Positions 7,967 to 56,853 of a stretch of 64,000 nt of DNA are shown piece by piece. The notes beneath the pieces are model-generated. The model made no database searches, was not told where the DNA came from, and saw nothing but the letters and a program-made list of their open reading frames with translations. The position numbers and the translations under genes are program-made. The DNA comes from Dyella terrae (lineage in GTDB: Bacteria > Pseudomonadota > Gammaproteobacteria > Xanthomonadales > Rhodanobacteraceae). The stretch is from the NCBI RefSeq assembly GCF_004322705.1, contig NZ_SIZZ01000001.1, forward strand, positions 930,001 through 994,000. The letters run 5' to 3'. Numbering within the stretch: the stretch's first letter is position 1; each line of letters starts with the position of its first letter.

Positions 7967-8772
7967 GAACATCTCTCGCCGGTTAACGTGCGTGTGATGT
8001 TACGTAGCGCATGTCCGGGATGTTTCGATGCTCAGCGAAACTTTCCGCAGCCGAAAAGCAGGGTCATGCGCCGTCGCCAAACTGAACTCAAGCCGCTTCA
8101 TGCATCGCAAGCTCGCTGGTCCTTGGCACGCAAAATCGTGTAGCGATCTCAGCGGCGCGCCGCAATATGCAAGCGACGAACACGAGCATGGCGTGCGCAA
8201 TCTTAGGCGGCACCCATCGCCATGCCTTTCCATGCGCCGCGCGTCGCAGGCCGCACTACGAAGCCGAAACACGCCGCGAGCGACAGGTCCATGCGCGTCA
8301 TTGCTTAGTTATGCCTTAGGCACGATCGAGGCGTGCCGCCTCTGTAAACGGTGCTCTGATGCGATGCAAATCCGCTCGAAATCATGTCGAACAAGCGCAC
8401 GCAACCGTCGCAAATTACGGTGGCGCATCCTCACAACCATGAATATGCGTGATCACATATCACCCCATTCACGCAGATCAAAATGCATTTGGACGTCCAT
8501 TCGAAACAGTGAACAAGTCAGTGGATTCACGCATTCAGCGCACTCAAGAACGACGATGCGCAAATTCATGTTGTGGTCATCGCAGGAGCCTATAACGGTC
8601 GCCGGTCGTTAGAAGAGCGATGACATAGCGTTAATCTCCATCGCGTTTCATTGCCGCTTTCTTCTTGTCGCAACCACGAATCGAAGGATGCAGATCACCG
8701 CATCCTTGGGTGAGTTTTTGCCAGAAACCGACCATGGCTACAGGGGCCACGCGACTAGAATGAGGCGCGCGC
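7967..8772. promoter_or_regulatory. 806-bp gene-free region upstream of the alginate operon
   Basis: No convincing gene lies between the divergent hydrolase and algA. The stretch is visibly AT-richer than its surroundings (especially 8330-8700), and open frames inside it encode Arg/Ser/His-rich sequence with no family resemblance. It must hold the promoters for the hydrolase pair and for the alginate operon. A leader inverted repeat sits at 8684-8707, and a partly symmetrical GTGATCACATATCAC lies at 8449-8463. The long upstream region recalls the large, multi-regulator algD promoter of Pseudomonas (established knowledge), but I found no clear AlgU-type or sigma-54 promoter. Confidence 0.6.
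8684..8707 (+). promoter_or_regulatory. Inverted repeat in the algA leader
   Basis: AAGGATGC and GCATCCTT form a perfect eight-base inverted repeat separated by eight bases, ending 65 bases before the algA start codon. It could be an operator or, if transcribed, a leader hairpin. It has no trailing T run, so it is not a standard terminator. Confidence 0.5.
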
Positions 8773-10275
8773 ATGGTTACACCCTCGGCAACATTAACCA
8801 AGAGTGCTTCACCGATCCTGGTTCCCGTACTGATGGCAGGCGGCACCGGCACTCGACTCTGGCCACTCTCACGCGAGCAATATCCAAAACAGTTCCTCAC
8901 ACTCATCGGACCGCTCAGCCTCTTTCAACAGACGGCGCAACGCGCTACAGGTATCGATAACGCTGTCGCACCGGTGGTCCTTGGATCGGAAGATCACCGC
9001 TTTGTGATCGCCGAACAGCTGCAGGATATCGAGATCAAGCCTTCCGCCATCCTGCTGGAACCTCAGAGCCGAAACACCCTCGCCGCTGCCGCCGTCGCCG
9101 CACAACATATCGCGGTGCGTCACGGTGAAGATGCCTTCGCTTTCCTCATGGCTGCCGATCACTACATTGCCGACTTCGTTGCGTTCCAGCTGGCAACCTA
9201 CGCAGCCGCCCAGGCAGCGACGCGCGATTGCATCGTGACGTTTGGCATCACTCCCACGCGACCCGAAACTGGCTACGGCTATATCCGCAGCGGCGAAACC
9301 ATTGACCAGAACGATGTTCGCGCAGTCGAGCAGTTCGTCGAGAAGCCCAACGCCGAGACGGCCCGAACGTTCCTGGCGTCTGGCGACTACTTCTGGAACG
9401 GCGGGATGTTCCTGTTCCGATGCGGCCACTTCCTTGAAGAACTTCGCCGCCTGGAGCCCGAAACCTACGAGCGTTCGCTTCACGCCGTTCAGTACGCACG
9501 CCAGGACAACGGTTTCACCCATCTGGATGCCGAAGCGTTTTCCCTCTGCCGCAATGACTCCATTGACTATGCAGTCATGGAGAAAACCCAGCGCATTGCA
9601 CTGGTCCCCCTCGATGCAGGATGGGAAGACGTGGGTTCGTGGAGTTATCTCGACCACATGCCAAGCGATGACCCGAGCCAGAACCACACCGAAGGCGATG
9701 TGTTGCTTGAAGATGCGACGGGTAACCTGGTCCACGCAAGCAGCCGGCTCGTTGCGCTCATCGGCGTCGATGACCACATCGTGGTGGAAACCGATGACGC
9801 CGTCCTCGTCGCACCGAAAGATCGTGCCCAGGACATCAAACGGGTCGTTCAATCGCTCAAGCGCGACAAGCGGTCCGAGGTCGAGAACCATCGGCGTGTC
9901 TTCCGCCCCTGGGGCTTCTACGAAACCATTGCCGGCGGCGATCGCTTCCAGGTCAAGCGCATATGCGTCAAGCCGGGACAGAAGCTCAGCCTGCAGATGC
10001 ATTATCACCGCGCCGAGCACTGGGTGATCGTCCGAGGCACGGCACGCGTCACCATCGCGGAAAAGACTTTCATCCTTACCGAAGACCAGTCGACTTACAT
10101 CCGGCTAGGCAACACGCATCGACTCGAGAACGCCGGACGCATTCCGCTCGAACTGATCGAAGTACAAACCGGTGTGTACCTGGGGGAGGACGACATTGTC
10201 CGCTTCAGCGACGCCTACGGCCGCACCGAAGGAACCACTGAGTTGCAGGCAACGCCCGTCCCCACGCCCGCCTGA
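8773..10275 (+). CDS. algA: AlgA: bifunctional mannose-6-phosphate isomerase / mannose-1-phosphate guanylyltransferase
   Basis: Makes GDP-mannose for alginate: isomerises fructose-6-P to mannose-6-P and transfers GMP to mannose-1-P; the intermediate mutase (AlgC) is not in the window. The pyrophosphorylase signature MAGGTGTRLWPLSR is at residues 21-34, with FVEKPNAETA in the middle of the nucleotidyltransferase domain. The C-terminal cupin isomerase domain carries LQMHYHRAEHWVIVRGTA with its metal-binding His residues, then NTHRLEN and ELIEVQTGVYLGEDDI. Length is 500 aa against about 480 in Pseudomonas. A GAGG site lies seven bases before the ATG. It is the first gene of the operon here, whereas Pseudomonas places it last. 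Some GDP-mannose enzymes serve other polysaccharides, but the adjacency to algD settles the role. Confidence 0.95.
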   Translation: MVTPSATLTKSASPILVPVLMAGGTGTRLWPLSREQYPKQFLTLIGPLSLFQQTAQRATGIDNAVAPVVLGSEDHRFVIAEQLQDIEIKPSAILLEPQSRNTLAAAAVAAQHIAVRHGEDAFAFLMAADHYIADFVAFQLATYAAAQAATRDCIVTFGITPTRPETGYGYIRSGETIDQNDVRAVEQFVEKPNAETARTFLASGDYFWNGGMFLFRCGHFLEELRRLEPETYERSLHAVQYARQDNGFTHLDAEAFSLCRNDSIDYAVMEKTQRIALVPLDAGWEDVGSWSYLDHMPSDDPSQNHTEGDVLLEDATGNLVHASSRLVALIGVDDHIVVETDDAVLVAPKDRAQDIKRVVQSLKRDKRSEVENHRRVFRPWGFYETIAGGDRFQVKRICVKPGQKLSLQMHYHRAEHWVIVRGTARVTIAEKTFILTEDQSTYIRLGNTHRLENAGRIPLELIEVQTGVYLGEDDIVRFSDAYGRTEGTTELQATPVPTPA

Positions 10276-10434
10276 CCTGGCCGGCGCGGCATCGCGAAGG
10301 AAAGACCGTGCTTCGCCCGGATGCGAAGTCGTGTACCGGGCACGCCCCGAATAGAGGAATAGCCACTGAAACCGCGCCTCCGGGCGCAGGAGTTAAGCAA
10401 GCCAACTGTCGTTCCCTATTCGGAGGAAGCTGCA

Positions 10435-11745
10435 ATGCGCATCAGTATTTTTGGCATGGGCTACGTAGGTGCCGTGTGCGCCGCATGCCTCGCCGATCGC
10501 GGCCACACCGTGATCGGCGTGGATATTTCTCAAACCAAAATCGACCTCATCAACAGTGGCCGGTCACCCATCGTGGAGCCAGGCCTGGGAGACCTTCTGG
10601 ACAAGGGTGTCAGAAGCGGGCGCATCACAGCGACATCCGATACGGCCTACGCCGTGCATAACTCGGATCTGTCAATGGTGTGCGTCGGCACGCCCAGCAA
10701 GAAGAATGGCGACCTTGATCTTCACTTCGTGCAGACCGTCGTCGCCGAGATCGGTGCGGCGCTTCGCGACAAGAGCCAGTGGCATACCGTTGTCATTCGC
10801 AGCACGGTGTTGCCCGGCACCATTCGCGATGTCGTGCTGCCGCTGCTCGAAGATACATCTCACAAGCGGGCCGGCCGCGAATTTGGCCTCGCCGTGAACC
10901 CGGAGTTCCTTCGCGAAAGCACGGCGATCGCCGACTACAACGACCCGCCGATGACCGTCATCGGTGAGTGGGACGAAGCGTCAGGCGACCAGCTTGCCGA
11001 ACTCTATGCCTCGCTTGCCGCCCCCATCATCCGCAAACCCATCGAAGTGGCAGAGATGGTGAAGTACACCTGCAATGCCTGGCACGCCACGAAGATCGCT
11101 TTCGCAAATGAGATCGGCAACATCTCCAAAGAACTGGGTGTCGACGGCCGCGACGTGATGGAAGTGATCTGCCAGGATCACAAGCTCAATCTTTCAAGCT
11201 ACTACCTGAAGCCGGGCTATGCCTTTGGTGGCTCGTGCCTGCCCAAGGATGTCCGCGCACTTAACTACTGCGCTACTCAGGTCGATGCCCTGCACCCGCT
11301 GATCGGGTCGCTGATGCAGAGCAACGAGCTGCATGTGAAGCGGGCCTTCGACCTGGTTACCTCGTTCGGCGATCGTCGCGTCGGCATGCTCGGCCTGAGC
11401 TTCAAGGCCCAGACCGACGACCTTCGCGAGAGCCCGCTGGTGGAGCTGGCCGAGATGCTCATCGGCAAAGGTTACGAGCTATCGATATTCGACGAGAACA
11501 TCGAGTACGCCAAGGTGCACGGCGCCAATCGCGAGTACATCAACAGCAAAATTCCGCACATATCCTCCCTGCTCAATCCGGACCTGGATGAAGTTATCGA
11601 AAGCTCCGAAGTCCTGATTGTCGGCCAGCGCGACCAGCATTTCGAAAAGGTGCTCAACGGAGCGCGTGGTGATCGCAAGGTCGTCGACCTGATCGGCATG
11701 ATGCCGCACGCGTCGACGCCCGAAATGCAGGGCATCTGCTGGTAA
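10435..11745 (+). CDS. algD: AlgD: GDP-mannose 6-dehydrogenase
   Basis: Oxidises GDP-mannose to GDP-mannuronic acid with two NAD+, the committed step of alginate synthesis in the cytoplasm. The N-terminal Rossmann motif is [20 protein letters not shown], followed by SPIVEPGL and [15 protein letters not shown]. The catalytic Cys is residue 268 in [13 protein letters not shown], the same number as in the Pseudomonas enzyme as I recall it. The C-terminal domain has [20 protein letters not shown]. The length of 436 residues and the ending GICW also match Pseudomonas AlgD. GGAGG stands eight bases before the ATG. A 159-base gap separates it from algA, enough for an internal promoter, though I saw no clear one. 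Confidence 0.96.
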
Positions 11746-11752
11746 CGCCGCC

Positions 11753-13309
11753 ATGATGCGGACGCCGGATGCCAGTCGTGGCTTCATCGCCTGCCCCTCC
11801 TTGCCCGGCAGCAGTCCTGCTCCGGGCATGGTCGGCAGTTTCCTCATCGATCTCGGTGGCTGGCTACTTTACGTGAGCGCCCTGATCGGCCTGGTCCTGC
11901 TGCTCCCACCGCAGGCGTTTGAACCCGGAACACGGATCTTCGTGTTCGCCTTGGGCGTCCTGGGTATGTGGCGTTACAGCCTTCGGGCCGTGCACTTCAT
12001 CCGGAGCATGATCTTCCTGCATTGGTCGTTCCCCTGGGCTCGCCGGCGCGTACGCAAAGCCGGCGACCTGGGCATGCCGCCACATGTGTACCTGCTGGTG
12101 ACGAGCTTTCGCATCGATACGCTGACCACGACCAAGGTGTACCAGTCGACGTTCGAGGAAGCCATTGAGTGTGGCGTGCCGACTACGGTCGTTGCCTCCA
12201 TCGTAGAGATGGGTGACCAGCGCCTGATCCTGGCGTTGTGGGAGTACATGGATCCGCCCGAGCGCGTGCGGCTAAAGATCGTACGCATCCCCGGCACCGG
12301 CAAGCGCGATGCCCTCGCCCAGGGTTTCCGCGCCATCTCGCGCGACATGCCGGAACCCAATGCAGTGGTGGCCGTGATCGATGGCGATACGGTTCTCGAG
12401 AAAGGCGTCATAGCGCGAACGGCGCCATTCCTTACCACCATGCCCAGCGTCGGCGCACTGACCACCAATGAGTTCTGCGAAGTCGCCGGCAGCTACGCCA
12501 TGAGCGAATGGCACAAGCTGCGCTTTGCACAGCGTCATCTGAATATGTGCTCGATGGCATTAGGCCGCCGCGTACTGACGCTGACCGGCCGCATGTCGCT
12601 GTTTCGTGCATCGATCGTGATCGATCCGGAATTCATCGATGACGTTCAGAACGACTCCGTCGAGCACTGGCGTCTGGGTCGGTTCAAGTTCCTCACCGGT
12701 GATGACAAGAGCACCTGGTACAGCCTCATGCGCATGGGCTGGGATACCTACTACGTTCCGGACGCATCCGTGCGTACACTCGAAACACCGCCGGATCCGA
12801 AGTTCCTCAAAGCCAGCCGAAAACTGATGTTCCGCTGGTACGGCAACTCGCTGCGCCAGAACAGCCGCGCACTGAAGCTCGGGCCGGGCAAGCTGGGCTG
12901 GTTCACCTACTACGTGCTGCTCGACCAGCGGGTGCTGATGTGGACCGGCCTGCTTGGCCTGGCGATGGCCATCGTGGCCAGCATCAAGTTCAGCCCGGTT
13001 TACCTGCTGACGTTCCTGCTCTGGGTCGGCATCACGCGCCTGATCATGTCGATGATGTTGCTCGCATCGGGCCATCGCATCGGCCCGGCGTTCCCGGTGC
13101 TGCTCTATTACAACCAGGTCATCGGATCGGTCATGAAGATCTTCGTGTTCTTCCGCCTCGACCAGCAGTCCTGGACGCGCCAGAACACCACCCTCGATCG
13201 CAACCTCGGCGCCTTCGAACGCCGCTTCAACCATTGGTCCTCATGGGCCATGACTTTTACCGCGACCAGCGTGTTCGCAGCCATCGTCATGTGCCTGCTG
13301 AGCCTGTGA
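11753..13309 (+). CDS. alg8: Alg8: mannuronan synthase, inner-membrane GT2 glycosyltransferase
   Basis: Polymerises mannuronic acid from GDP-mannuronate at the inner membrane with Alg44. Two N-terminal membrane segments (about residues 30-75) precede the GT2 domain, which has the nucleotide and metal motif DGD at 210-212, GDDKSTW at 316-322 and the acceptor-side segment [14 protein letters not shown]. Four hydrophobic helices follow (about 390-515). Length is 518 aa against about 494 in Pseudomonas. It starts seven bases after algD; an alternative ATG at 11828 would remove 25 poorly conserved residues and may be the true start. Family resemblance to cellulose and hyaluronan synthases is expected, but GDDKSTW and the gene context point to Alg8. 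Confidence 0.94.
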
Positions 13310-13348
13310 CGCCCACGAACCGAACAGGACCGCAAGGAAAACCCAACC

Positions 13349-14587
13349 ATGGCTCATGAATCTGTCAATGTGGTGCACGAAACGGAAGTCGAGCGCCAAC
13401 ATCCAAGGGTGCGCATCCCCGCGACCCTGCATCTGGAAGTTCGCGGCCAGGAGCAGACCTTCCGCCTGATCGATATCTCCGCAGGTGGCTTCGCTTTCCA
13501 TGGGCGCGGCAACAGCTACGACATCGGACGCATGTACCGAGGCACGCTGCGGTTTGCCATCGACCCCATGGGCATGACGCTTCCGGTCAGCTTCCGCGTG
13601 CGCAACTTCGACCCCGCCAACCAGCGCGTCGGCGTCACCTTCGAAGACCTCGACGAGCGCCAGACCACCCTGCTTCGCCAACTGATCAATGCGTACATTG
13701 CCGGCGAAGTGGTGACGGTGGGCGATGTGATCACCACCTTGTCGCGCAACAACTTCACGCGGGCGCGTACGCAGCAGGTGGCGCGCAAGCCGCAGCCACA
13801 ACGAACCCGGTCGAGGGCATTCACGCTGACGGGGGTGTTCTTTCTGGTCGGCCTGGCGGCCTTCACCTATGCGTTCTCCCGCTTGTATGGCGTGCTCTTC
13901 ATCAATCACGCCATCGCCGCCAAAGTGGCCGCACCGAGCTTCGCCATCGCCATGCCCCGCGACGGCACCTACTTCAACCTGATTCCACCCAACGGCAAGG
14001 TGAAGAAGGGACAGCCGATCGGCACGTTCCAGGCGGCGATGCTCGACGTCGTGCAGAACGATCCGGGTTCGCTTCATCTGACGCCGCAACAGTTGTCGGA
14101 CCTGATGGGCGAGACGCTGAAGGGCACGCTGTCGAGCCCCTGCGATTGCACGGTGCAACAGAAGTTCGCGCTGGATTCGCAGTACGTCAATCGCAACCAG
14201 CCGCTGGTGACCCTGCTGCCGGAAGACGCCAAGCCCTATGTGCTCGCGCGCTTCCACTTCGACAGCATGCAGGACCTGCGCGTCGGCCGCACCGTCGCCT
14301 TTCAGGTCAGCGGTGAGAGCCATGAGCGCTATGGCACCATCCGACAGGTGCGCCTACTGCCCACGCCCATCGGCAACGATGAGCGCGGCAGTGCCAGCGA
14401 CATCCGTGGCCTCGACAGCCCGGGTACCGTCAGCGACGTGCTGGCCCAGATTGAACCGACGGAAGCCTTGCCACGCGCGATGATCGACCAGCCCGTCGAC
14501 GTGCAGCTGGGCGACCCGCGCAGCGCGATTGCGGGCCCCATCGACGAAGGCGTGCGTCGCGTGCGCGCCATGCTCGCGAAACTGTGA
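13349..14587 (+). CDS. alg44: Alg44: PilZ-domain c-di-GMP receptor and co-polymerase subunit
   Basis: Partner of Alg8 that switches polymerisation on when c-di-GMP binds. The cytoplasmic PilZ domain keeps both binding motifs: RQHPR (RxxxR) at 16-20 and DISAGG (D/NxSxxG) at 42-47. A single membrane helix (about 155-177, TLTGVFFLVGLAAFTYAFS) is followed by a periplasmic part resembling a membrane-fusion-protein hairpin, with IPPNGKVKKGQPIGTFQA and LSSPCDCTVQQ typical of a biotinyl/lipoyl-like hybrid motif. Length is 412 residues, slightly above the roughly 390 of Pseudomonas. The gene ends one base into the start of algK. Retention of every key PilZ residue implies post-translational c-di-GMP control in this organism too (inference). 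Confidence 0.95.
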   Translation: MAHESVNVVHETEVERQHPRVRIPATLHLEVRGQEQTFRLIDISAGGFAFHGRGNSYDIGRMYRGTLRFAIDPMGMTLPVSFRVRNFDPANQRVGVTFEDLDERQTTLLRQLINAYIAGEVVTVGDVITTLSRNNFTRARTQQVARKPQPQRTRSRAFTLTGVFFLVGLAAFTYAFSRLYGVLFINHAIAAKVAAPSFAIAMPRDGTYFNLIPPNGKVKKGQPIGTFQAAMLDVVQNDPGSLHLTPQQLSDLMGETLKGTLSSPCDCTVQQKFALDSQYVNRNQPLVTLLPEDAKPYVLARFHFDSMQDLRVGRTVAFQVSGESHERYGTIRQVRLLPTPIGNDERGSASDIRGLDSPGTVSDVLAQIEPTEALPRAMIDQPVDVQLGDPRSAIAGPIDEGVRRVRAMLAKL

Positions 14588-16296
14588 TGAAACGTCCCGT
14601 CGCCCGCAGTCTCCTGATGGTGGCGTTTGGTGCCATGACCTGCGCTTCCGCGCAGCAGGCGCCGCCGCCCGCGCAGAACCCGCCCACGGCGGTCGAAGGC
14701 GGCGGCATGCCGGACCTGGAGCGCGGCAAGCTCGCCGCACAGATGGGTCATGACGCCGAGGCGGAGAGCAACTTCCTGCCCCTCGCACAGCGCGGCTACA
14801 CCGAAGCCCAGCTCGCCCTGGCCCGCCTGTACGCGCGTCGGCAGACGACGCAGTCGATGAAGGACGCGATTCACTGGTTCCGCACAGCCGCGCAAAAAGA
14901 TCCCGTCGACGCTGAAGTCCCCTTGGCGCGCTTGCTGCTAAAGCAGGATGACCCTTCGCAGCTCGATGAATCGCAGCGCCTGTTCCTGCACGCCTGGGAG
15001 GAGCGGCAAGACCCGGAAGCGCTGGCTGGCCTGATCGAGCTATACACCGCCTACCCGGAAAAGGATGGCAGCAAGCAGCTTCCAACCCTGGTGGTCACGG
15101 CGGAGAAGCTCGACCTGCCGGTGACCAATGGCGCGCTGATCAGCTGGTACCGCAACACGCGCGACGTGCCCGGCCACAACGATCACCTGCTGGCGATGTG
15201 TCGCAAGTCGCTGAATATCGCCCCGACGTGTTACGTCGATCTCGTTCGCGACATGCGCGAACGCAAAGATCTCAAGGCCATGCAGCAGATGGTCTCCGCG
15301 GCGATGTCGCAGTATGCGCAGGGTCTGGTACCCGTGGCCACTGCATCCGGCCTCGCACGTGCGCTGGTCGCGGCACCCGACGGCGCGCTTGAAGCAGGGG
15401 ACGACACACCCGTTTCGGACGCCCCGGAAACGGATGCAGAGGACCTGGCGTCAACCGGGGCCTCATCGGGCACGACCACGATGGCGGCATCGCGTTCCTG
15501 CGAACAGGATCCGGTCGGCGTGACCAAAGTGGTCAATGCATCGCAGCAGACAGCCGGTGCACCGCCGCCCGTCGCCAACATCGTGCCAACCAGGAACACC
15601 GCACCGGCAGCCGCGCCTGGCAATGCCAAGCCAGCCGCCCAGCCGGCACCCGACGCGAATGCACAGCCGGAAATGGCCAACCAGATTCTTGCCAAGCTCG
15701 CTGGTGGTTCGCCCGAAGCTCGCGTCGAGGCCGCCGGTGTCGCGGTGCGCTTTCCCTACCTGGCACCGGACCTGGATCTGGAAAACATCCTGCAGGACGG
15801 CATGAAGCAGGGTCTGGCCGATGCTCCGCTCTATCTGGGCGAGTTGTACCTGCACGGCGCGCGTGCGCCCCGTGATCCGGAAAAGGCGCTGGACCTGCTC
15901 CAGCGCGCCGCGAAACATCCCGATACGGCGCTCGACGCGCAGTACTACATCGGGCGCCTTTATCAGTACGGCTACCTCGACGAGGTGGATCCGCAAAAAG
16001 CCATCGATCACCTGCTCTTCGCCGCGCGGCGCGGCTATGTCGCCGCCGACAGCGCTTTGGCGCGGCTTTATTCCTCGGGCAAAGGTGTGTGTCCGGACCT
16101 CGTCAACGCATTCGTCTTCGCGCAACTGGGTGCGCGCGACGGCGCCCCTGCGATCCGCACGCTGGCCGGTCAGGTGACCGGTGCGCTCACCCCGCAACAG
16201 CGTCAGTCGGCGCAGCGGCTCCTTCGTCAGGAGGAGGCGGCGCGTCAGCAAGTGCCGCAGACCGACCTGGCTGAAGCCACCCCATCCTCACCATGA
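14587..16296 (+). CDS. algK: AlgK: periplasmic TPR/Sel1-repeat alginate export scaffold
   Basis: Scaffold linking the inner-membrane synthase to the AlgE pore. Sel1/TPR-like repeats occupy residues about 45-255 and again 385-540 (DAPLYLGELYLHGA, DAQYYIGRLYQYG and ADSALARLYSSGKGV are clear units). Between them, about residues 260-365, lies a low-complexity Ala/Pro/Asp/Thr segment that accounts for most of the extra length (569 aa against about 475 in Pseudomonas). The signal peptide ends MTCASAQQA: a Cys is present but the residues before it (A-M-T) do not form a good lipobox, so lipidation is doubtful although Pseudomonas AlgK is a lipoprotein. The ATG at 14587 shares its A with the alg44 stop; a GTG one codon upstream is less likely. 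Confidence 0.88.
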   Translation: MKRPVARSLLMVAFGAMTCASAQQAPPPAQNPPTAVEGGGMPDLERGKLAAQMGHDAEAESNFLPLAQRGYTEAQLALARLYARRQTTQSMKDAIHWFRTAAQKDPVDAEVPLARLLLKQDDPSQLDESQRLFLHAWEERQDPEALAGLIELYTAYPEKDGSKQLPTLVVTAEKLDLPVTNGALISWYRNTRDVPGHNDHLLAMCRKSLNIAPTCYVDLVRDMRERKDLKAMQQMVSAAMSQYAQGLVPVATASGLARALVAAPDGALEAGDDTPVSDAPETDAEDLASTGASSGTTTMAASRSCEQDPVGVTKVVNASQQTAGAPPPVANIVPTRNTAPAAAPGNAKPAAQPAPDANAQPEMANQILAKLAGGSPEARVEAAGVAVRFPYLAPDLDLENILQDGMKQGLADAPLYLGELYLHGARAPRDPEKALDLLQRAAKHPDTALDAQYYIGRLYQYGYLDEVDPQKAIDHLLFAARRGYVAADSALARLYSSGKGVCPDLVNAFVFAQLGARDGAPAIRTLAGQVTGALTPQQRQSAQRLLRQEEAARQQVPQTDLAEATPSSP

Positions 16297-16310
16297 AAAA
16301 GGGAACTGCG

Positions 16311-17711: not shown

Positions 17712-19411
17712 AGCGCGCCACGCTGGCGTTCGGCCTTGTCGCGCTGCTGCTGGTAAGCAGCGGTGGCGCGGCATGGGCGACGCAGACACCGCCGCAAGCC
17801 ACCGCCGGACATGGTGCGAAGAAAGGCACCAGGTCTGCGCCCCAGGATCCACACCGAACCGCCAGCGACGACGACGATTCGGATCAGACGGACGGGTCGG
17901 ACGAAGACGACAACAACCAGGTGGACGCCGCCGCCTTCGAGTCGAATGCCGAGCAACCCAAGAACTACAGCGTCGGCACGGGTTCGGCGCAGAGCCTGAT
18001 GAAGTGGACGCCGCCGACCATTCCCGACATCGACCAGTACACCGAGGCGGCGGCAATGAAGCGGCTCAAGCGAACGCCGCTCGGGCACGTCCATGTCGGC
18101 AGCATGCTCGAACAACCGCAGTTCCGAAACTTCATGGGCCGCGACGAACGCATGCGCGAATGGGCCAAGCGCCAGTCGTCGATGCCCCAGGTCATCTATG
18201 TCGGTGGCGGTTACGTGACGCCGCGTGAGATGGCCAGGGCCCTGCCGAAGCAATACTTTGCTGAAACCGAACCCGGCGTCTTCGTTGCCCGGTTGCCGAT
18301 CGATGTCCTGCCGGGCGCGACGCTTCATATCGGCGATGACGTAAAGGATTTCAGGCTGTCGCTGGACCGCGGTGCTTTCATTGTCAACGAAGGCAACCTG
18401 TTCGTCTCACGCAGCCGCCTGGAAGGATGGAACGAGGCGAAGAAGGAACCGTCCATCTTCGAAGACGAGAAGGAATTCCGGCCCTTCGTGGTCTCCTGGG
18501 GTGGCTCGGAAACCTATTTCATCCACAGCACCATCGCGCATCTGGGCTATGCGGCCAGCAAGGCGTATGGCATCTCGATCAGCCAGTACAGCCCCTCGGT
18601 AGCACCGATCATGAAGAAGCCGCCGCCGACCGGCTGGCTGATCAACTCGGAATTCTTCGACAACTGGTATGGCTTCTACTGCTACGAAGCGGAGGACATG
18701 GCCATCGTCGGCAATGTCTACCATGACAACATCAAATACGGCATCGATCCGCACGACCGATCCAAGCGCCTGCTGATTGCGCGAAACACGGTTTACGACA
18801 CGCGAATCAAACACGGCATCATCGTTTCGCGCGAGGTCAACGAAAGCTGGATCGTCGAAAACACCTCGCACAACAACGGCCTGTCCGGCATCGTCGCCGA
18901 TCGCAGCAGCATGCATAACGTCATTGCGCTCAACAAGACCTACCGGAACAACTCGGACGGCATCACCATCTATGAGAGCCCGAACACGGTCATCTGGCGC
19001 AATCTGGTCACGGCGAACCAACGCCACGGCATACGCGTTCGCAACAGCATCGACGTGCAGTTGCGCGACAACGTTGCCGTGGGCAACACGCTGTCCGGCA
19101 TCTACGGACACATCGAAAACCTGAGCGATACGGGACGCAATCTGAAGCTCGACCCGTTCCACCCGATCATTTCCATGACCGTGGTGGGCGGCAAGCTCGT
19201 GTCCAACGGCTCCGGTCCGATCACGATCGACCAGCCCCTCAGCCTGGAGGTTTACAACGTCGATCTGCGTGAGCCTCGGCGTGAACTTGGCATCCATTTC
19301 ACGGGCGTGCTCGGCACGTACCAGGAAAAGGTGCTCGACATCATGGTGCGACAGAAGCTTCCGGTGGTGGTGAAACCGGAAACCCTGAGCGTCAGCAGTA
19401 CGGACAAATGA
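17702..19411 (+). CDS. algG: AlgG: periplasmic mannuronan C5-epimerase
   Basis: Converts mannuronate to guluronate residues in the nascent polymer. The signal peptide is DVKRATLAFGLVALLLVSSG followed by GAAWA. The right-handed beta-helix carries the catalytic motif DPHD at 349-352 (YGIDPHDRSKRLLIARNTVY), followed by KHGIIVSREVN, LSGIVADRSS, SDGITIYES and NQRHGIRVRNS, all close to the Pseudomonas enzyme. Length is 569 aa (Pseudomonas about 543). A distinctive feature is an Asp-rich run at residues 56-75 in the mature N-terminus, before the folded domain. The GTG at 17702 was chosen because it begins the signal peptide; no ATG is available there, and the preceding open frame only shadows algE. 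Confidence 0.95.
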   Translation: MDVKRATLAFGLVALLLVSSGGAAWATQTPPQATAGHGAKKGTRSAPQDPHRTASDDDDSDQTDGSDEDDNNQVDAAAFESNAEQPKNYSVGTGSAQSLMKWTPPTIPDIDQYTEAAAMKRLKRTPLGHVHVGSMLEQPQFRNFMGRDERMREWAKRQSSMPQVIYVGGGYVTPREMARALPKQYFAETEPGVFVARLPIDVLPGATLHIGDDVKDFRLSLDRGAFIVNEGNLFVSRSRLEGWNEAKKEPSIFEDEKEFRPFVVSWGGSETYFIHSTIAHLGYAASKAYGISISQYSPSVAPIMKKPPPTGWLINSEFFDNWYGFYCYEAEDMAIVGNVYHDNIKYGIDPHDRSKRLLIARNTVYDTRIKHGIIVSREVNESWIVENTSHNNGLSGIVADRSSMHNVIALNKTYRNNSDGITIYESPNTVIWRNLVTANQRHGIRVRNSIDVQLRDNVAVGNTLSGIYGHIENLSDTGRNLKLDPFHPIISMTVVGGKLVSNGSGPITIDQPLSLEVYNVDLREPRRELGIHFTGVLGTYQEKVLDIMVRQKLPVVVKPETLSVSSTDK

Positions 19412-19427
19412 CGCGGAGCGACGACAC

Positions 19428-20849
19428 ATGGTCTTCTCATCCAACGTCTTCCTCTTTCTGTTCCTGCCCCTGTTCCTGGCGGTGTACTACCTGACACCCA
19501 ACCGCGGCCGGGCGCGCAACTCGGTTGTGCTGATCGGCAGCTATCTGTTCTATGCCTGGTGGCGCCTCGATTTCCTCATGCTGTTCGCGTCGGTGACGGT
19601 GTGGAATTACTTCGTGGGCCTGTCCATTGCCCGCGTTCCACGGCGCAGTCCGGCTGCGCGACGGCGACTGATCATCGGCGTGGCCGGGAACCTGCTGACA
19701 CTGGCCTATTTCAAGTACGCCAATTTCGGCGTCAGCAGCATCAACGACGCCCTGGCCGCCACCGGCGGCGGTCAGATCTCGTGGCTGCACGTGATCCTGC
19801 CAATCGGCATCTCGTTCTACATCTTCGAATCGATCAGCTACATCGCCGATGTGTACCGGGGAGATACGGAGGCCACGCATCACCCGGTGGATTTCGCCAC
19901 CTTTATCGCATTGTTTCCGCATCTCATTGCCGGACCGGTATTCCGCTACAAGGACCTGGCCGACCAGTTCGTGCAGCGCGAGCACAGCTGGGAGAAGTTC
20001 GGTGAAGGCTCGGTGCGTTTCATGCAGGGTTTCATCAAGAAGGTGCTGATCGCCGATGCCATCGCGCCACTGGCCAACAGTGCATTCGCTCTGACCCATC
20101 CGCATACCGCGGACGCCTGGCTCGGCGCGCTCGCTTATACCGCACAGCTCTACTTCGACTTTTCCGGCTACAGCGACATGGCCATCGGTCTTGGTCTCAT
20201 GATGGGCTTCCGCTTTGTCGAAAACTTCAACCAGCCCTACATCAGCCAGAGCATCACCGAGTTCTGGCGGCGCTGGCACATGAGCCTGTCGGCGTGGCTG
20301 CGCGATTACCTTTACATCGCGCTGGGCGGCAACCGAAAAGGCCGTGCACGGACCTACATCAATCTGCTGCTGACGATGCTGCTTGGCGGGCTCTGGCACG
20401 GCGCCAGTTGGAACTTCCTGATCTGGGGTGGCTGGCACGGAAGTATGCTTGCCGTCGAGCGCGCTGCCGGTGTGAAGGCCGAATCGCCGCGCTTCCGTCT
20501 TCATCGCTGGGCACTGACATTCCTGCTCGTCGTGCTCGGTTGGGTGATGTTCCGCGCGCCCACCGTTACCGATGCCTTTCACGTTTATCGCGCGATGTTC
20601 GATTTCCACGGGCACGGTCTGTCGGACGTGTATGCAGGCAGTATCACCTCGCTGCAAGTGATCACGCTTGGACTGGCCATCGTGGTGACCATCGCCACGG
20701 GTGCGGCGAGCCTGCGCCCCGCGCCCCGTCCGCCCGTGCGTGCACGCGGCCATCTGGCACTGCAATGGCTGGTGTGGCCGGTCTTCGTCCTGGCGATTCT
20801 CAAGCTCTCGGCGCAGAGCTACTCGCCTTTCCTCTACTTCCAGTTCTAG
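19428..20849 (+). CDS. algI: AlgI: MBOAT-family alginate O-acetylation membrane protein
   Basis: Polytopic inner-membrane acyltransferase that passes acetyl groups to the periplasm. The N-terminus (MVFSSNVFLFLFLPLFLAVY then YLT) and SYLFYAWWRLDFLMLF are typical of AlgI and its relatives. The MBOAT catalytic His is residue 324 in GGLWHGASWNFLIWGGWHG, and FFxxWHMSLS-type wording appears as FWRRWHMSLSAWLRDYLYI. Length is 473 residues, somewhat shorter than the roughly 520 of Pseudomonas; the difference is mainly at the C-terminus. It begins 16 bases after algG. MBOAT proteins of other polysaccharide loci look similar, but the flanking algG and algJ make the assignment secure. Confidence 0.94.
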   Translation: MVFSSNVFLFLFLPLFLAVYYLTPNRGRARNSVVLIGSYLFYAWWRLDFLMLFASVTVWNYFVGLSIARVPRRSPAARRRLIIGVAGNLLTLAYFKYANFGVSSINDALAATGGGQISWLHVILPIGISFYIFESISYIADVYRGDTEATHHPVDFATFIALFPHLIAGPVFRYKDLADQFVQREHSWEKFGEGSVRFMQGFIKKVLIADAIAPLANSAFALTHPHTADAWLGALAYTAQLYFDFSGYSDMAIGLGLMMGFRFVENFNQPYISQSITEFWRRWHMSLSAWLRDYLYIALGGNRKGRARTYINLLLTMLLGGLWHGASWNFLIWGGWHGSMLAVERAAGVKAESPRFRLHRWALTFLLVVLGWVMFRAPTVTDAFHVYRAMFDFHGHGLSDVYAGSITSLQVITLGLAIVVTIATGAASLRPAPRPPVRARGHLALQWLVWPVFVLAILKLSAQSYSPFLYFQF

Positions 20850-20863
20850 CGGGGTAGCGACGC

Positions 20864-22183
20864 ATGCGCACTCAGAGACAAGCGATGAGCCAGGCTTTCG
20901 ACGCGAGGGCATCGGGTTCTGACGTGATTCCGACATCGCACCGTGGTACCCGCCTGCGACTGGGGCGCACCTGGGCAAGGGCCTGGCGTCGTGCGGGACT
21001 GTCAGGATCAATGGCATTGACGCATCGCGTGACGCTACTCAACGGCGCGTTGTTTGCCACGATGGTCGCCGTCCTCGGCGCGGCCGGGCTTGTACGCTCG
21101 GTGGATTTCCGTGCCGAACCCGGACTGAGCGTGGTCCGCGGCGCGTTGGCGCACGCGTTCGAGAATCACTACGACGAAACGTTTCCCGCCAAACGCATGG
21201 GCGTGAACCTCTGGGCCGCCGTGGATTACGGCTTGTTTCGCGAAGGCCTTCCGGGCGTGATCGTCGGCAAGGATGGCTGGCTGTACACGGACGAAGAGTT
21301 CAAGCTGGACAACGACTCGGCGACGCTCGTCCGGCGCAACCTTGCGCTGATCGACTGGGTGAAGCGTGAGCTGGAGCGGCAGCATGTCGCCCTGGTCGTG
21401 GCCGTGGTTCCCGCCAAGGCGCGCATCTATCCGGAGTATCTGGGCAGCAGGCAGCCACCGGCACTGCGGCAGATGCTCTACCCTCAAATGATCAGCCAGC
21501 TTCGCGCCAGTGGCGTAAACACGGTCGACCTGCGGGAGCCCCTGCAGGACGGCAAGCGACGGAACGCGACCTATCTGCGCACCGATACGCACTGGACGCC
21601 CTTTGGCGCGCGGCTTTCCGCGCAGGCCATTGCCGGACAGACGGGTCATGTCGCCGATGCGTCGGGCAACTTCCACACCATCGCCGGCGCACCCGCAATG
21701 CATCGCGGCGACCTCTTCAATTTTCTTCCGCTCGATCCCTGGTTCGGCTGGATGCTGCCAGCACCTGACGTGTTGACGCCTGTGCAGACGGCCGCGGATG
21801 CGAAAGGCAACGATCTCCTGGGTGACACGCCGCGCGCACAGGTGGCCCTCGTGGGAACCAGCTACAGCGCCGAGGCCAACTGGAACTTCGCCGGCGCGCT
21901 GGAGCAGGCCCTGCACACAGACGTGCTCAATTACGCCAGGGATGGCAACGGCCCCTTCGAGCCGATGCTCGCCTATCTCCACTCCGCCGACTTCCGCGCA
22001 TCGCCGCCGCGACTGGTGATATGGGAAGTGCCGGAACGCTACATGCCGCTTCCCCAGACGGCACTCGCCGCCTACCACCTGCCGCCAGACGCGTGGATCC
22101 CGCGCGTGGCGGCATCGGCCGCCACCGGCGGCAACCCTGCCAGAGAAGGAGGTTCCACCAGCCATGTCCAAAGCAATCTCTGA
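20864..22183 (+). CDS. algJ: AlgJ: SGNH-like alginate O-acetyltransferase
   Basis: Periplasmic, membrane-anchored member of the AlgX/AlgJ SGNH-like family that works with AlgI and AlgF in O-acetylation. A positively charged cytoplasmic leader of about 55 residues precedes a membrane anchor (TLLNGALFATMVAVLGAAGL). The DxH motif is D241-T-H243 in DTHWTPFGARLS and the nucleophile segment is GTSYS at 331-335. Another landmark is GKDGWLYTDEE, shared with AlgX. Length is 439 aa against about 390 in Pseudomonas, the excess lying in the N-terminal leader; initiation at ATG 20885 is a possible alternative. The 3' end overlaps algF by 20 bases. Confidence 0.92.
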   Translation: MRTQRQAMSQAFDARASGSDVIPTSHRGTRLRLGRTWARAWRRAGLSGSMALTHRVTLLNGALFATMVAVLGAAGLVRSVDFRAEPGLSVVRGALAHAFENHYDETFPAKRMGVNLWAAVDYGLFREGLPGVIVGKDGWLYTDEEFKLDNDSATLVRRNLALIDWVKRELERQHVALVVAVVPAKARIYPEYLGSRQPPALRQMLYPQMISQLRASGVNTVDLREPLQDGKRRNATYLRTDTHWTPFGARLSAQAIAGQTGHVADASGNFHTIAGAPAMHRGDLFNFLPLDPWFGWMLPAPDVLTPVQTAADAKGNDLLGDTPRAQVALVGTSYSAEANWNFAGALEQALHTDVLNYARDGNGPFEPMLAYLHSADFRASPPRLVIWEVPERYMPLPQTALAAYHLPPDAWIPRVAASAATGGNPAREGGSTSHVQSNL

Positions 22184-22808
22184 TCGCCGCATGCGGGCAC
22201 GCGCGCTTCGCCAGTCCGCACTCGCTCTCGTCCTGCTGGCCTGTGCAGCGACCGCCGTTGCCGGCCTTTATCCCGCCGCCGCGCCACCCGGCTCCGCTTT
22301 CATCCGGGTGTTCAACGCCTCCAATCAACCCAAGGTGACCGCACAGGTCGGCAGCAAGAACCTTGGCGACGTGAATGCACTCGAAGCCAGCGCCTATGCC
22401 TTTCTTCCTCCGGGGCAGTATCCGGTGAAGATCGGCGATGCCAGCGAGAACACCAACCTCCAGGGTTCGCATTGCTACACGGCGGCGCTGGGCAGCGACA
22501 GCAAAGTGCATCAGTTCGAGCAGCAGTGCTTCAACAGTCAGCTGAAGTCGCTGGTCGCCGTGTACAACCTGATCGACGGCACGACACTGAGCCTCAAGAC
22601 TGCCGACGGCACCGCCGTGGTGGAGAACGTCGCCGCCAACGCCACCGGCCAGCGGGAGGTCAATCCGATCAAGGCCGATCTGGCCATTTACGACGGCGCC
22701 AACAAGCTGGCCGACGCCAAGCCCGTCACTCTGATGCGCGGAAGTACCTACAGCCTGTTCGTCATGGGCACGCGCAGCAGTCCGGTGTTGATCTGGGTCA
22801 ACGGATGA
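22164..22808 (+). CDS. algF: AlgF: periplasmic alginate O-acetylation accessory protein
   Basis: Small exported protein required for O-acetylation with AlgI and AlgJ; it has no known catalytic motif. The signal peptide (ALRQSALALVLLACAATAVA) is followed by the AlgF-like start GLYPAAAPPGSAFIRVFNAS. Two beta-rich repeats are visible, the second beginning near AVYNLIDGTTLSL. Two cysteines (in GSHCYTA and QQCFNS) could form a disulfide. Length is 214 aa, matching Pseudomonas AlgF. AAGGAGG lies eleven bases before the ATG, inside the end of algJ. Confidence 0.92.
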   Translation: MSKAISDRRMRARALRQSALALVLLACAATAVAGLYPAAAPPGSAFIRVFNASNQPKVTAQVGSKNLGDVNALEASAYAFLPPGQYPVKIGDASENTNLQGSHCYTAALGSDSKVHQFEQQCFNSQLKSLVAVYNLIDGTTLSLKTADGTAVVENVAANATGQREVNPIKADLAIYDGANKLADAKPVTLMRGSTYSLFVMGTRSSPVLIWVNG

Positions 22809-22816
22809 GGTTCGCC

Positions 22817-24289
22817 ATGCCACGGTTCCTCCAGGCATCTGTGTTTGCGGGAGTGGTGTGGGCCGGCGGCGTGGTCGCCGGCTCGCCGCCGCCCGCCGAT
22901 CCTACGCCGCCGGCAGCCGTGCCGACGGCGTCCACCCTGCCCAAGTACAGCGCCAGACCCTGTTGTTCGCTGTGCCCGCGTGCGGGCGATCCCCAGGCGT
23001 ACGAGGGTTCGAAGTTCATGAACGACTTCCGCGTCCTGATCGACGGCCGCAACGGCTGGCTCTTTCGTACAGCGCTGGATTTGCCCACGCAGTTCAACGT
23101 ATCGGATGAAAGTCTGACGCAGCTGCATCGCCTCAGCGAGGCCCTGGGCCAACGGGGTACGCGCATCGTCATGGTGTACCAGCCACCGCGCGGACTGATG
23201 GACCCCGACAAGCTCACGCCCACGCAGCGGCGTGGCTACAACCTCGACATGGCGCGCAGCAATTACGCCCAGGCCTTGCAGCGCATGCGTTCGGAAGGCG
23301 GCGTCATCGTTCCGGCGCTCGACAAGCTGGTCGATGAGCACAAGGGCTACGACTACTACTTCCGCCGCGACCATCACTGGACGGCCGCCGGTGCGCAACA
23401 CACGGCCAAGGCTGTCGCCGATGCCATGAAGAACCAGCCGGGCTTTTCCGCCATCGCACGGAAGAAATTCGAAACCCACACTCAAGGGGTCATTGGCAAG
23501 CCGGGTACGCTGCAGAAAGTGGCGTCGCAGATGTGCGGCGGCGCGTACTCCATGCAATACGAACCTGTTTTTGTCACCGACCCGGTGGGTGGCGACAGCC
23601 TGCTGGGCAGGGAGTCGCAACCCGATGTCGTGCTCGTGGGCACCAGTAACAGCGACTCGCTGGGCGGCTACAACTTCGCCGGCTATCTGGAAGAAAACCT
23701 CGGCGTCGATGTGCTGAACGTTGCCATCACGGGCGGATCGTACGAAGGCTCGCTGCTGCACTACCTGGCAAGCAAGGAGTTCCAGCAGCACCCGCCGAAG
23801 TTCATCATCTGGGAGACGCCTTACCAGGATTACCCCGACACCGAGCAGATGGCCTTCAAGGTCTATCGCCAGGCCATTCCGCTCGTCAACAACGGTTGCC
23901 GCGGCAAGACCCCGGTGCTCGAGCGCAAGGTTGATCTGCACCAGGGCAACAATGAAGTGCTGTTCAACGGCGGAGGCAAGATCCTGCCGCTGGTGGGCAA
24001 GCAATACCAGCTGGAATTCCAGTTCAGCGACCCGGCGGTAAAGGACCTGGCAGCCGAGGTCTGGTACTTCAGCGGCCTGAAGGAATCGCTCAAGCTGCAC
24101 TACAAGCAATACGTCGATAACGGTGGTCGCTTCAACGCCGAACTTCGCTCGGATCGCCCCGACTATGCTGCAGCGACACTGATGGGTGTCACCATGCAGC
24201 TCGATCAGGCGCCGGCGAAGCCACTCAGCGTGACGGCCCAACTGTGTGAGCGAGGGGGCCCACAGGAACTCACGGCACAACGAAGGTGA
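22817..24289 (+). CDS. algX: AlgX: periplasmic alginate acetyltransferase and export-complex component
   Basis: Acetylates alginate and stabilises the trans-periplasmic complex. After a signal peptide and a Pro/Ala-rich stretch the SGNH-like domain begins with IDGRNGWLFRTALDL. The DxH motif is D185-H-H187 in RRDHHWTAAGAQH and the Ser motif is GTSNS at 275-279. The C-terminal 130 residues match the position of the carbohydrate-binding module of AlgX. Length is 490 aa (Pseudomonas about 474). Two starts are possible: ATG 22805 overlapping the algF stop, or ATG 22817, preferred because GAGG stands six bases upstream. A CC-x-x-C cluster (PCCSLCP) follows the signal region, as in AlgX proteins. 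Confidence 0.92.
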   Translation: MPRFLQASVFAGVVWAGGVVAGSPPPADPTPPAAVPTASTLPKYSARPCCSLCPRAGDPQAYEGSKFMNDFRVLIDGRNGWLFRTALDLPTQFNVSDESLTQLHRLSEALGQRGTRIVMVYQPPRGLMDPDKLTPTQRRGYNLDMARSNYAQALQRMRSEGGVIVPALDKLVDEHKGYDYYFRRDHHWTAAGAQHTAKAVADAMKNQPGFSAIARKKFETHTQGVIGKPGTLQKVASQMCGGAYSMQYEPVFVTDPVGGDSLLGRESQPDVVLVGTSNSDSLGGYNFAGYLEENLGVDVLNVAITGGSYEGSLLHYLASKEFQQHPPKFIIWETPYQDYPDTEQMAFKVYRQAIPLVNNGCRGKTPVLERKVDLHQGNNEVLFNGGGKILPLVGKQYQLEFQFSDPAVKDLAAEVWYFSGLKESLKLHYKQYVDNGGRFNAELRSDRPDYAAATLMGVTMQLDQAPAKPLSVTAQLCERGGPQELTAQRR

Positions 24290-24294
24290 ACCCC

Positions 24295-25401
24295 ATGACC
24301 CGCTTCCACTGGCATCGCATGATCCGCCTTGCGCTATTCCTCCCATTGGCCGGCCTTTCCTGTGCCGTAGCGGCCCAGTCGACGCTGGTACCCCCACCTG
24401 GCTACTACGCGGAAGTCGTCAATAAGCCGGACAAGAACTTCACTTGCGACGACCCGCCGGCGCCCTACACCGACACGCTGGACTTTCCAAGCAAGTACGA
24501 GGGCTCCGGCAAAGCGCGCGATCAACTCAACGAACAAGCCAATGCCGACTACAAGAAGCGCAGCGAGCCGATCAGCCAAATGGAAAAAGGCGTCAACAAG
24601 CTTGTCGACAAGTACATGCGCACCGGCAATGCCGACGCGCTGCAATGCGTGCTGAAGTGGTACACGACCTGGGCCGACGCCAACGCGCTGCTCGGCCCTT
24701 CTGCGTCCTATTCGGGCAAGGCCATGCGCAAGTGGTCGCTGGCCAGCCTGAGCGGCGCTTTCCTTCATCTGCAGTTCTCCCGCTCACAGCCACTGGCGGC
24801 GTTTCCGGAACAGACGCAGAAGATCAAGACGTGGCTTGGGCTCGTGGGCGACAAGGTGTTGACCGAGTGGGATCTCAACTCGCCACGCGAGAAGATCAAC
24901 AACCATTTCTACTGGGCTGCATGGGCCATCATGGCCACCAGCGTGGTCGAGAACCGTCGTGATGAGTTCGACTGGGCGGTGAAGACGTATCGCATCTTTG
25001 CCAGCCAGGTCGATAATGACGGTTACCTACCCAACGAACTGGCGCGACAGACGCGCGCACTCGGATACCACAACTTTGCGATAACGCCACTATCGATGAT
25101 TGCCGCTTTCGGCAAGGCCAATGGCGTGGATCTCGCGAGCGAGGGCAACGGCGCCCTGAAGCGGCTTGCCGAACGAACGCTTGCTGGCATCAACGATCCG
25201 CAGGTGTTCTCTGCGAAAAGCGGCTATCCGCAGGAACTCGAAGATGTAAGCAAGCAACCCACTGAACTGGCCTGGATAGAACCTTATTGCTGGGCTGCGA
25301 GCTGCCAGGGGCCCATCGCGCAGAAGGCCGAATCGTTGCGGCCGATGAAGAACACCCGACTGGGAGGCGACGTCACCGCCGTATTCCACGATCACCACTG
25401 A
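24295..25401 (+). CDS. algL: AlgL: periplasmic poly(beta-D-mannuronate) lyase, PL5
   Basis: Degrades alginate that accumulates in the periplasm. The signal peptide is IRLALFLPLAGLSCAVAAQS or thereabouts. The catalytic segment is NNHFYWAAWAIMAT with His at residue 204; Pseudomonas enzymes, as I recall, have Ser in place of this Phe. Other conserved parts are NRRDEFDWAVKTYRIF, DGYLPNELARQTRALGYHN and AWIEPYCWAASC near the C-terminus. Length is 368 residues, as in Pseudomonas. The ATG at 24295 is preferred to GTG 24286 because AAGGTGA lies just before it. It is the last gene of the operon, closed by a strong hairpin. Confidence 0.95.
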   Translation: MTRFHWHRMIRLALFLPLAGLSCAVAAQSTLVPPPGYYAEVVNKPDKNFTCDDPPAPYTDTLDFPSKYEGSGKARDQLNEQANADYKKRSEPISQMEKGVNKLVDKYMRTGNADALQCVLKWYTTWADANALLGPSASYSGKAMRKWSLASLSGAFLHLQFSRSQPLAAFPEQTQKIKTWLGLVGDKVLTEWDLNSPREKINNHFYWAAWAIMATSVVENRRDEFDWAVKTYRIFASQVDNDGYLPNELARQTRALGYHNFAITPLSMIAAFGKANGVDLASEGNGALKRLAERTLAGINDPQVFSAKSGYPQELEDVSKQPTELAWIEPYCWAASCQGPIAQKAESLRPMKNTRLGGDVTAVFHDHH

Positions 25402-30343: not shown

Positions 30344-30567
30344 GGCCAGTCCCCGTGACGGTTTGCGAAGGCAAGTCACGGCAAAGATTCGTTCACATAC
30401 AATGTCGGTATCGAACTTACGGGTAGCGGCACATTCCCTGCCGCAGCGGTCGTACCGCCCTCCAGCGGACCGACCCGGAAACCGCATGCACCCCCTGTGC
30501 GTCGGCGAGTATAGGCGCATAGCCGGCGAATCGTCAGTGGATTGTGCCCGGACTCAAGTCATGGAGC

Positions 30568-51753: not shown

Positions 51754-51925
51754 GGCGTCCTGCGGCGGGTGTCGTGGGTCGGCTTGTAAGTGCCGTGCCG
51801 GCGCGCAGAGGTTGCCCTGCCGCCTCGCAACCCTTGTGCGCGGCAGCCGCACTCACCTCCAACCAGCGTGGAAGCGTGGGCGACCCTGGTTCGCCGTGTG
51901 TCGGCGGGGATGGAGGCGGAAGCGC
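51754..51925. promoter_or_regulatory. Divergent promoter region between the HprK-like and radical SAM genes
   Basis: 172 bases that must drive the exporter pair leftward and the radical SAM pair rightward. GC-rich with no obvious inverted repeat. Short frames here were examined for a precursor peptide; none has a convincing leader-core pattern. Confidence 0.5.
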
Positions 51926-56845: not shown

Positions 56846-56853
56846 GACCGTCT

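Follow-up and report, generated by a model that had tools for sequence, protein, structure and literature searches.

A complete alginate operon in Dyella terrae, most probably of horizontal origin, with an atypical AlgK

The alginate locus

We analyzed a window of 64,000 nucleotides, the whole stretch taken from contig NZ_SIZZ01000001.1 of Dyella terrae (assembly GCF_004322705.1), in which twelve contiguous genes in the order algA-D-8-44-K-E-G-I-J-F-X-L make up a complete set of alginate genes on the + strand (8773-25401; Table 1). None of the twelve has an internal stop. Of the eleven adjacent pairs, five overlap by 4 bases and one by 20; gaps of 7-159 bases separate the remaining pairs, the longest (159) lying between algA and algD. 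Such short gaps and overlaps are as expected for a single transcription unit. The most likely starts are the GTG at 17708 for algG and position 22805 for algX.

The proteins were identified with Pfam and NCBIfam profiles and, for eight of the twelve, by comparison with solved structures. AlgA (TIGR01479), AlgL (NF001467) and AlgD score above NCBIfam cut-offs, the last only with the general nucleotide-sugar dehydrogenase model TIGR03026. AlgG falls slightly below its cut-off (674 vs 700 bits) and AlgK far below, Alg8 and AlgI match only weaker models under other names, and no NCBIfam model matched Alg44, AlgE, AlgJ, AlgF or AlgX. Pfam directly supports AlgE, AlgF and AlgX/J. In all eight structural comparisons the top match was GDP-mannose dehydrogenase or the alginate protein of the same name, as with the PilZ domain of Alg44 (4rt0, E 9e-22), AlgL (4ozv, E 8e-107) and AlgK (7ula_B, E 2e-50); the solved alginate proteins are ones that we take to be from Pseudomonas.

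A script located the GGSC motif with Cys268 in AlgD, DPHD at residue 347 of AlgG, NNH at 205 of AlgL, and both RQHPR (16) and DISAGG (42) in Alg44. Among the acetylation proteins, AlgX has DHHW (189) and GTSNS (279), AlgJ has DTHW (241) and GTSYS (331), and AlgI has LWHG (322). AlgD, AlgG, AlgX, AlgJ and AlgL align across the motif regions with the solved proteins of the same name. The locus combines Alg8 and its PilZ partner Alg44 with Cys268 of AlgD, AlgG, the AlgI/J/F/X set, AlgL and AlgE, as an alginate operon should. A first-pass annotation of the window had read twelve alg genes in one orientation with the key motifs of AlgD (C268), AlgG (DPHD), Alg44 (RxxxR and DISAGG) and AlgL (NNH) intact; profiles, structures and uninterrupted frames bear this out, and the motifs of AlgX, AlgJ and AlgI can be added to it. 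Judged by its sequence, the locus is a real, intact alginate operon, predicted to be most probably functional.

Table 1. Features of the window (percentages are protein identities unless stated; D. sedimenti, Dyella sedimenti N-S-14; GT2, glycosyltransferase family 2; c-di-GMP, cyclic di-GMP)
Feature	Position	Strand	Description and support
leader block upstream of algA	8560..8634	+	candidate promoter or regulator site; 71% over 75 bases to the D. sedimenti leader, E 2e-4 among six upstream sequences (alignment A2)
algA	8773..10275	+	bifunctional mannose-6-phosphate isomerase / GDP-mannose pyrophosphorylase; TIGR01479 650 bits vs cut-off 373; 80% to D. sedimenti
algD	10435..11745	+	GDP-mannose 6-dehydrogenase, Cys268 intact; 1mfz residues 1-436 of 436, E 2e-205; TIGR03026 above cut-off
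alg8	11753..13309	+	GT2 polymannuronate synthase; GT2 Pfam; 83% D. sedimenti, 64-69% Nevskiales, 58-66% Pseudomonas rows
alg44	13349..14587	+	PilZ c-di-GMP receptor / co-polymerase; PF07238; RxxxR and DxSxxG aligned to 4rt0
algK	14584..16296	+	TPR/Sel1 periplasmic scaffold, no lipobox, central linker ~264-354 (model); 7ula_B/3e4b
algE	16293..17711	+	outer-membrane alginate porin; PF13372; 4xnk E 8e-71
algG	17708..19411	+	mannuronan C5-epimerase, DPHD; NF038177 674 bits (cut-off 700); 4nk6 E 5e-163
algI	19428..20849	+	MBOAT O-acyltransferase-type; PF03062; 56% / 62% to AlgI matches in loci L049 / L050
algJ	20864..22183	+	SGNH acetyltransferase-type; 4o8v E 3e-79
algF	22164..22808	+	acetylation protein; PF11182 142 bits vs cut-off 34
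algX	22805..24289	+	O-acetyltransferase, SGNH and carbohydrate-binding module; PF16822 and PF16824; 4knc E 5e-110
algL	24286..25401	+	periplasmic alginate lyase; NF001467 447 bits vs cut-off 429; 4ozv E 8e-107
hybrid histidine kinase	26810..30520	-	Reg_prop repeats
large adhesin-like pair	30604..42413	-	2678-residue protein of SdrD-B, DUF11 and carboxypeptidase-regulatory repeats; 1258-residue partner without Pfam match
response regulator	42765..43535	+	AraC-type helix-turn-helix
mixed cluster	49053..62088		two radical-SAM/B12-binding proteins, two group-1 glycosyltransferases, ABC transporter, methyltransferase, amidohydrolase, Wzz-like protein

Distribution, chromosomal site and ancestry

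The host genome (4.22 Mb in 9 contigs, recorded as 100% complete) belongs in GTDB to the family of D. sedimenti, in another genus, and so to the Rhodanobacteraceae of the Lysobacterales (the order once called Xanthomonadales), where NCBI places D. sedimenti. Its RpoB is 95.5-96.6% identical to that of five genus mates, 95.6% to that of D. sedimenti, and only 71.6-72.7% to those of two Pseudomonas and one Azotobacter. The earlier guess of a Xanthomonadales-like host is upheld by this family placement and by the RpoB identities and tree, and the low identity to the classical alginate genera speaks against a relative of either.

The operon is rare among the relatives of the host. Alg8 occurs in one of six genomes of the genus and in two of 233 of the family, those of the host and of D. 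sedimenti, the two proteins being 83-84% identical. In a draw of 398 genomes of the order, which did not include D. sedimenti, AlgF (PF11182) was matched at E 0.001 in five and above the cut-off in four, the host included, and only in the host was AlgF found beside Alg8. The other three (L039, L040, L041) were considered as alginate operons and rejected, having AlgI/J/F-like genes and no Alg8 in stretches of 16.7-19.9 kb; acetylation-type genes without a synthase suggest some other acetylated polymer. The genome with the weak AlgF match (G286) has no alg match within its stretch. At wider scales, and counting the host, Alg8 was matched at E 0.001 in 12 of 369 genomes of the class and AlgF in 18 of 299 of the phylum. 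Alg8-like GT2 proteins at 35-39% identity in seven class genomes were discarded as alginate synthases, there being no Alg44 beside them in the five of seven examined, two of which also match AlgG or AlgD plus AlgA. Scanned with Alg8, viral contigs gave no relative, and plasmids gave 14 records, 9 of them from Rhizobium, all below 60% identity. Two further loci (L043, L044) and the Rhizobium plasmids have an Alg8 at ~44-49% identity; the two loci match AlgD, AlgE and AlgG as well, with no acetylation genes matched in their stretches, and perhaps belong to a different uronan system.

A scan of titled genomes with Alg8 returned 591 stretches and 559 relatives, the best 80 of which were analyzed. 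By title these are from Pseudomonas (66), Marinobacter (5), Solimonas (3), and one each from Dyella, Nevskia, Hydrocarboniphaga, Oleiphilaceae, Hahella and Azotobacter. The loci of five Nevskiales and of D. sedimenti begin with algA, carry G-I-J-F, and have in common the order A-[C]-D-8-44-K-E-G-I-J-F. The DNA of four of the five Nevskiales loci stops before AlgX; D. sedimenti alone shows the X-L end, and in Nevskia the sequence extends to the start of X. Seven loci of the 80 (Marinobacter, Hahella, Oleiphilaceae) run from D to G and on to I-J-F-X, with no algA within the fetched DNA, and X stands directly after G in 66 of the 67 Pseudomonas and Azotobacter loci, the remaining one being cut. 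The order in the window does not match the canonical Pseudomonas layout.

The two Dyella operons occupy different sites. The operon of D. sedimenti is within a segment of ~20 kb between the tRNA-Lys(ctt) of a five-tRNA cluster by ftsH and a short-chain dehydrogenase/reductase gene, a site that holds 593 bases in G039, a genome of the same GTDB genus. Compared with G039, D. sedimenti appears to have gained this segment by insertion, a deletion in G039 being also possible. A search of 40 kb of D. sedimenti for exact repeats of the tRNA-Lys 3' end gave none of 15 bases or more. In the host, ftsH and the tRNA cluster are present too but are not adjoined by the operon, which lies at a distance of ~405 kb on that contig, and none of ten proteins from the window flanks matched the 40 kb stretch of D. 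sedimenti. With two members of the family carrying it at different sites, the operon has probably been relocated or acquired repeatedly. An empty-site comparison did not define the insertion boundaries of the host operon: matches to left-flank DNA in seven relatives were isolated, dispersed genes, and the DNA on the right has undergone rearrangement. The GC content of the operon (62.2%) is close to that of 140 kb of the host (63.6%), hence composition does not flag it. The five-tRNA cluster (L169, 9462-10087), which borders the alginate segment in D. sedimenti and different DNA in relatives, may be an integration hotspot.

A tree of Alg8, Alg44, AlgG, AlgI and AlgE (20 rows, 2337 columns) groups the operons of the host and D. 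sedimenti (100/100) on a long shared stem of 0.39 changes per column, as sister to that of Nevskia (96/96) and in a clade that also takes in Hydrocarboniphaga and Solimonas (100/100). In the RpoB tree, from which Nevskia is absent since its metagenome-assembled genome (MAG) gave no RpoB match, Hydrocarboniphaga and Solimonas lie beside the 16 Lysobacterales rows. Mean identity over six Alg proteins is 80.4% between the host and D. sedimenti (RpoB 95.6%), 78.0-81.4% in the Solimonas pairs (RpoB 94.3-95.8%), and just 66.8-70.0% in three Pseudomonas/Azotobacter pairs (RpoB 93.2-94.5%). The means between host and Nevskiales (60.6-61.9%, RpoB 70.7-71.7%) exceed those between Nevskiales and Pseudomonas/Azotobacter (53.6-55.5%) at similar RpoB identity. 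These values would fit an arrival before the host and D. sedimenti split, and parallel gains or later exchange would fit them too. The alg proteins, at 76%, compare with a median identity of 84% for 26 pairs of reciprocal best hits around ftsH (Mann-Whitney p 0.10); four of these pairs, at 27-35%, are probably not orthologues, and we give more weight to the RpoB comparison. We regard the kinship of the host operon to those of Nevskiales as firm, and its descent from within Nevskiales as moderately supported by the tree.

The AlgK variant and the origin of the operon

The AlgK of the window scores 230.7 bits with NF038194 (AlgK_TPR_lipo), below the cut-off of 700. Of the best 80 loci, 79 have an AlgK match, and in 72 of these a lipobox occurs shortly before a conserved PD motif; the seven without it are six Dyella/Nevskiales loci and one Oleiphilaceae MAG. 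By pattern alone, and with the window counted, the lipobox is absent from all seven members of the Dyella-Nevskiales clade and present in 72 of the 73 other AlgK loci. The N-termini in the clade, judged by eye, resemble ordinary signal peptides, and AlgK there seems to be without the lipid anchor of the Pseudomonas version. In the Oleiphilaceae MAG (L063), the sole case outside the clade, AlgK and AlgE matches share one open frame of 927 residues.

A second peculiarity is an insert rich in Pro and Ala that separates the TPR halves, present in all six clade rows of alignment A3, from which the AlgK of Solimonas soli was left out, and absent from the five Marinobacter and Pseudomonas rows. An AlphaFold2 model (11 sequences, mean predicted local distance difference test score, pLDDT, of 77) has mostly confident helices at 44-261 and 361-555, and pLDDT below 50 at 1-38, 264-354 (one residue excepted) and 558-569. 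The TPR/Sel1 halves are homologous by sequence to solved AlgK (7ula_B, 3e4b), and 3e4b and 7ula are the top fold matches of the model. According to PMC9734138, AlgK of P. aeruginosa is an outer-membrane lipoprotein contributing to AlgE localization, and AlgX of P. putida binds AlgK TPRs 9-10. The insert is N-terminal to the presumed AlgX-binding half, so docking of AlgX may be retained despite the linker.

It is likely, in our view, that the window holds a complete synthase-dependent alginate operon gained horizontally from the Nevskiales side, with an unanchored, linker-bearing AlgK. With roles assigned by orthology to characterized Pseudomonas proteins, AlgA, a phosphomannomutase encoded elsewhere in the genome and AlgD would supply GDP-mannuronate, which Alg8 would polymerize under c-di-GMP control via the PilZ domain of Alg44. 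AlgG would convert mannuronate to guluronate residues, AlgI, AlgJ, AlgF and AlgX would O-acetylate the chain, AlgL would remove stray polymer, and AlgK and AlgE would export the product. The operon would have entered the Dyella group from a donor that was most likely Nevskia-like, followed by a relocation or by more than one gain. In the clade, AlgK would have lost its lipid anchor and acquired a flexible linker joining one TPR half to the other, the scaffold probably being kept at the outer membrane through contacts with AlgE and AlgX alone. We give roughly even chances to a broader proposal: that Nevskiales and Dyella have a second exporter architecture, in which a soluble, non-lipidated AlgK with linker-joined TPR halves makes AlgE targeting and AlgX docking independent of an anchor, and which spread as one cassette, including into Rhodanobacteraceae, once at a tRNA-flanked site.

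As for precursor supply, D. sedimenti and four of the five Nevskiales have an algC between algA and algD; the window and Hydrocarboniphaga have none there. The two matches of the host to this AlgC are a GlmM-like protein (28%) and a 772-residue protein (33%) with phosphomannomutase/phosphoglucomutase domains, PgmG-like (495 bits, cut-off 600) and encoded elsewhere in the genome, which we infer may supply the precursor. A closer copy (59-61%) exists in D. sedimenti and in the genus mate G310, and is lacking in the host and in G291. Regarding control, the only regulatory feature recognized is the predicted response to c-di-GMP through the PilZ motif of Alg44. The leader (7973-8772, 55% GC) contains a block ~140 bases ahead of algA that was not found upstream of algA in the five Nevskiales sequences, and the window has no tRNA or Rfam match.

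The first-pass annotation had left open whether the operon was acquired or ancestral. The best reading is that it was most probably acquired horizontally, as favored by its rarity, the tree and the gene order; the part that places it with Nevskiales stands in the five-protein tree, which includes Alg8 and AlgG, and the part that would place it inside rather than beside them has moderate support. Several observations weigh against this account. A tree constrained to keep the five Nevskiales as one group is worse by 13.0 log units with five proteins (approximately unbiased (AU) test, p 0.047) and by 12.1 with nine proteins in a quick tree of 15 rows (p 0.134), values that do not firmly reject a Nevskiales clade excluding the host pair, for a group chosen after the tree was inspected. 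The Alg similarity of host and D. sedimenti is that of Solimonas pairs but higher than that of Pseudomonas/Azotobacter pairs, and hence does not date the gain. The host has neither an operon algC nor a XanA/CpsG-type mutase that we could find, only the PgmG-like and GlmM-like proteins. The AlgU-type consensus, which we take to be GAACTT-N14-18-TCTGA, has no match in the window, divergent promoters not being covered by it, and no sigma-70-like promoter was found in 7900-26700. Lastly, the signal region of the host AlgK does contain one cysteine (AMTCASA), the preceding Thr of which breaks the lipobox pattern.

Among the alternatives, two separate acquisitions from related donors, by the host and by D. 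sedimenti, rather than a single gain and relocation, are a real if lesser possibility. The distinct chromosomal sites and the presence of algC only in the D. sedimenti operon are what such a history would leave, whereas the two operons are nearest relatives of one another on their long stem, show about the divergence of Solimonas operons with like RpoB identity, and have the leader block in common. That the operon dates from the shared ancestor of Nevskiales and Lysobacterales, and was lost by nearly all of the latter, is improbable. Alg and RpoB identities do fall on approximately one line for the Solimonas pairs, Hydrocarboniphaga-Solimonas and host-Nevskiales, and the nine-protein AU test is compatible with it, but it has to accommodate the near absence of Alg8 from the family, the host as the only order genome drawn with AlgF beside it, the apparent insertion in D. 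sedimenti relative to G039, and the nesting of the Dyella pair beside Nevskia. A related but different polymer (for example an unepimerized or other uronan), or silent genes, would suit the lack of algC in the operon and the atypical AlgK, but is unlikely given twelve uninterrupted genes and the alignment of AlgD, AlgG, AlgX, AlgJ and AlgL through their motifs with solved namesakes.

Neighboring genes and known alginate systems

Downstream of the operon, the large adhesin-like pair co-occurs at 77-86% in two genus mates. The hybrid histidine kinase and the AraC-type response regulator are near each other in four genus mates and are separated in the window by that pair (Table 1). The mixed cluster lies further on.

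Alginate operons are known beyond the classical genera. The survey PMC7112194, which covers 1733 genomes, counts 64 alginate operons distributed over 60 species, with 'atypical' ones of environmental bacteria among them, and homologous operons are present in genomes of Nevskiales, Marinobacter, Hahella and D. sedimenti. With operons outside Pseudomonas and Azotobacter already in print, that of the host is a variant of a familiar system, and the novelty first attached to it on this account was overstated. In the literature searched (titles and abstract openings of the papers listed, with subscription journals mostly outside), we found no description of an alginate operon for Xanthomonadales, Rhodanobacteraceae, Dyella, Solimonas or Nevskia, and the concern that one had already been described in the family found no support there. 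The main text of PMC12789092, which names D. sedimenti, contains neither 'exopolysaccharide' nor 'mucoid'. The operon extends complete alginate operons to the family of Dyella and points to transfer between orders. It also offers a natural case of an export scaffold apparently without a lipid anchor, which makes the role of AlgK lipidation testable, and its diverged epimerase, acetylation proteins and lyase widen the choice for alginate engineering.

A divergent operon type (L051, L052) resembles the window in having IJF before XL and algA leading, and differs in having algG last, an Alg8 just 52-53% identical and a long separate branch; it resembles the rearranged Pseudomonas clade described in PMC7112194. 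The Pseudomonas/Azotobacter operon has homologues of all twelve proteins (L050), with Alg8 at 58-66% in the rows compared, and the same motifs in the eight structure-aligned proteins. Its order is D-8-44-K-E-G-X-L-I-J-F-A, whereas the window has algA first and IJF ahead of XL, and an AlgK without lipobox and with a linker. The operon of D. sedimenti N-S-14 (L061; L169-L170) has all twelve genes in the same order at 65-88% protein identity, and differs in carrying algC and in adjoining the tRNA-Lys/ftsH site. The Nevskiales operons (Nevskia RYN_595, Solimonas marina, S. terrae and S. soli, Hydrocarboniphaga RYN_594), the closest sequences after Dyella among the best 80 of the 559 relatives, have the order of the window over the DNA covered and an AlgK without lipobox, and differ in that four of the five place algC, lacking in the window, between algA and algD. 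Compared with these systems, the operon appears ordinary in kind, and what seems to be new is its lineage-specific AlgK variant.

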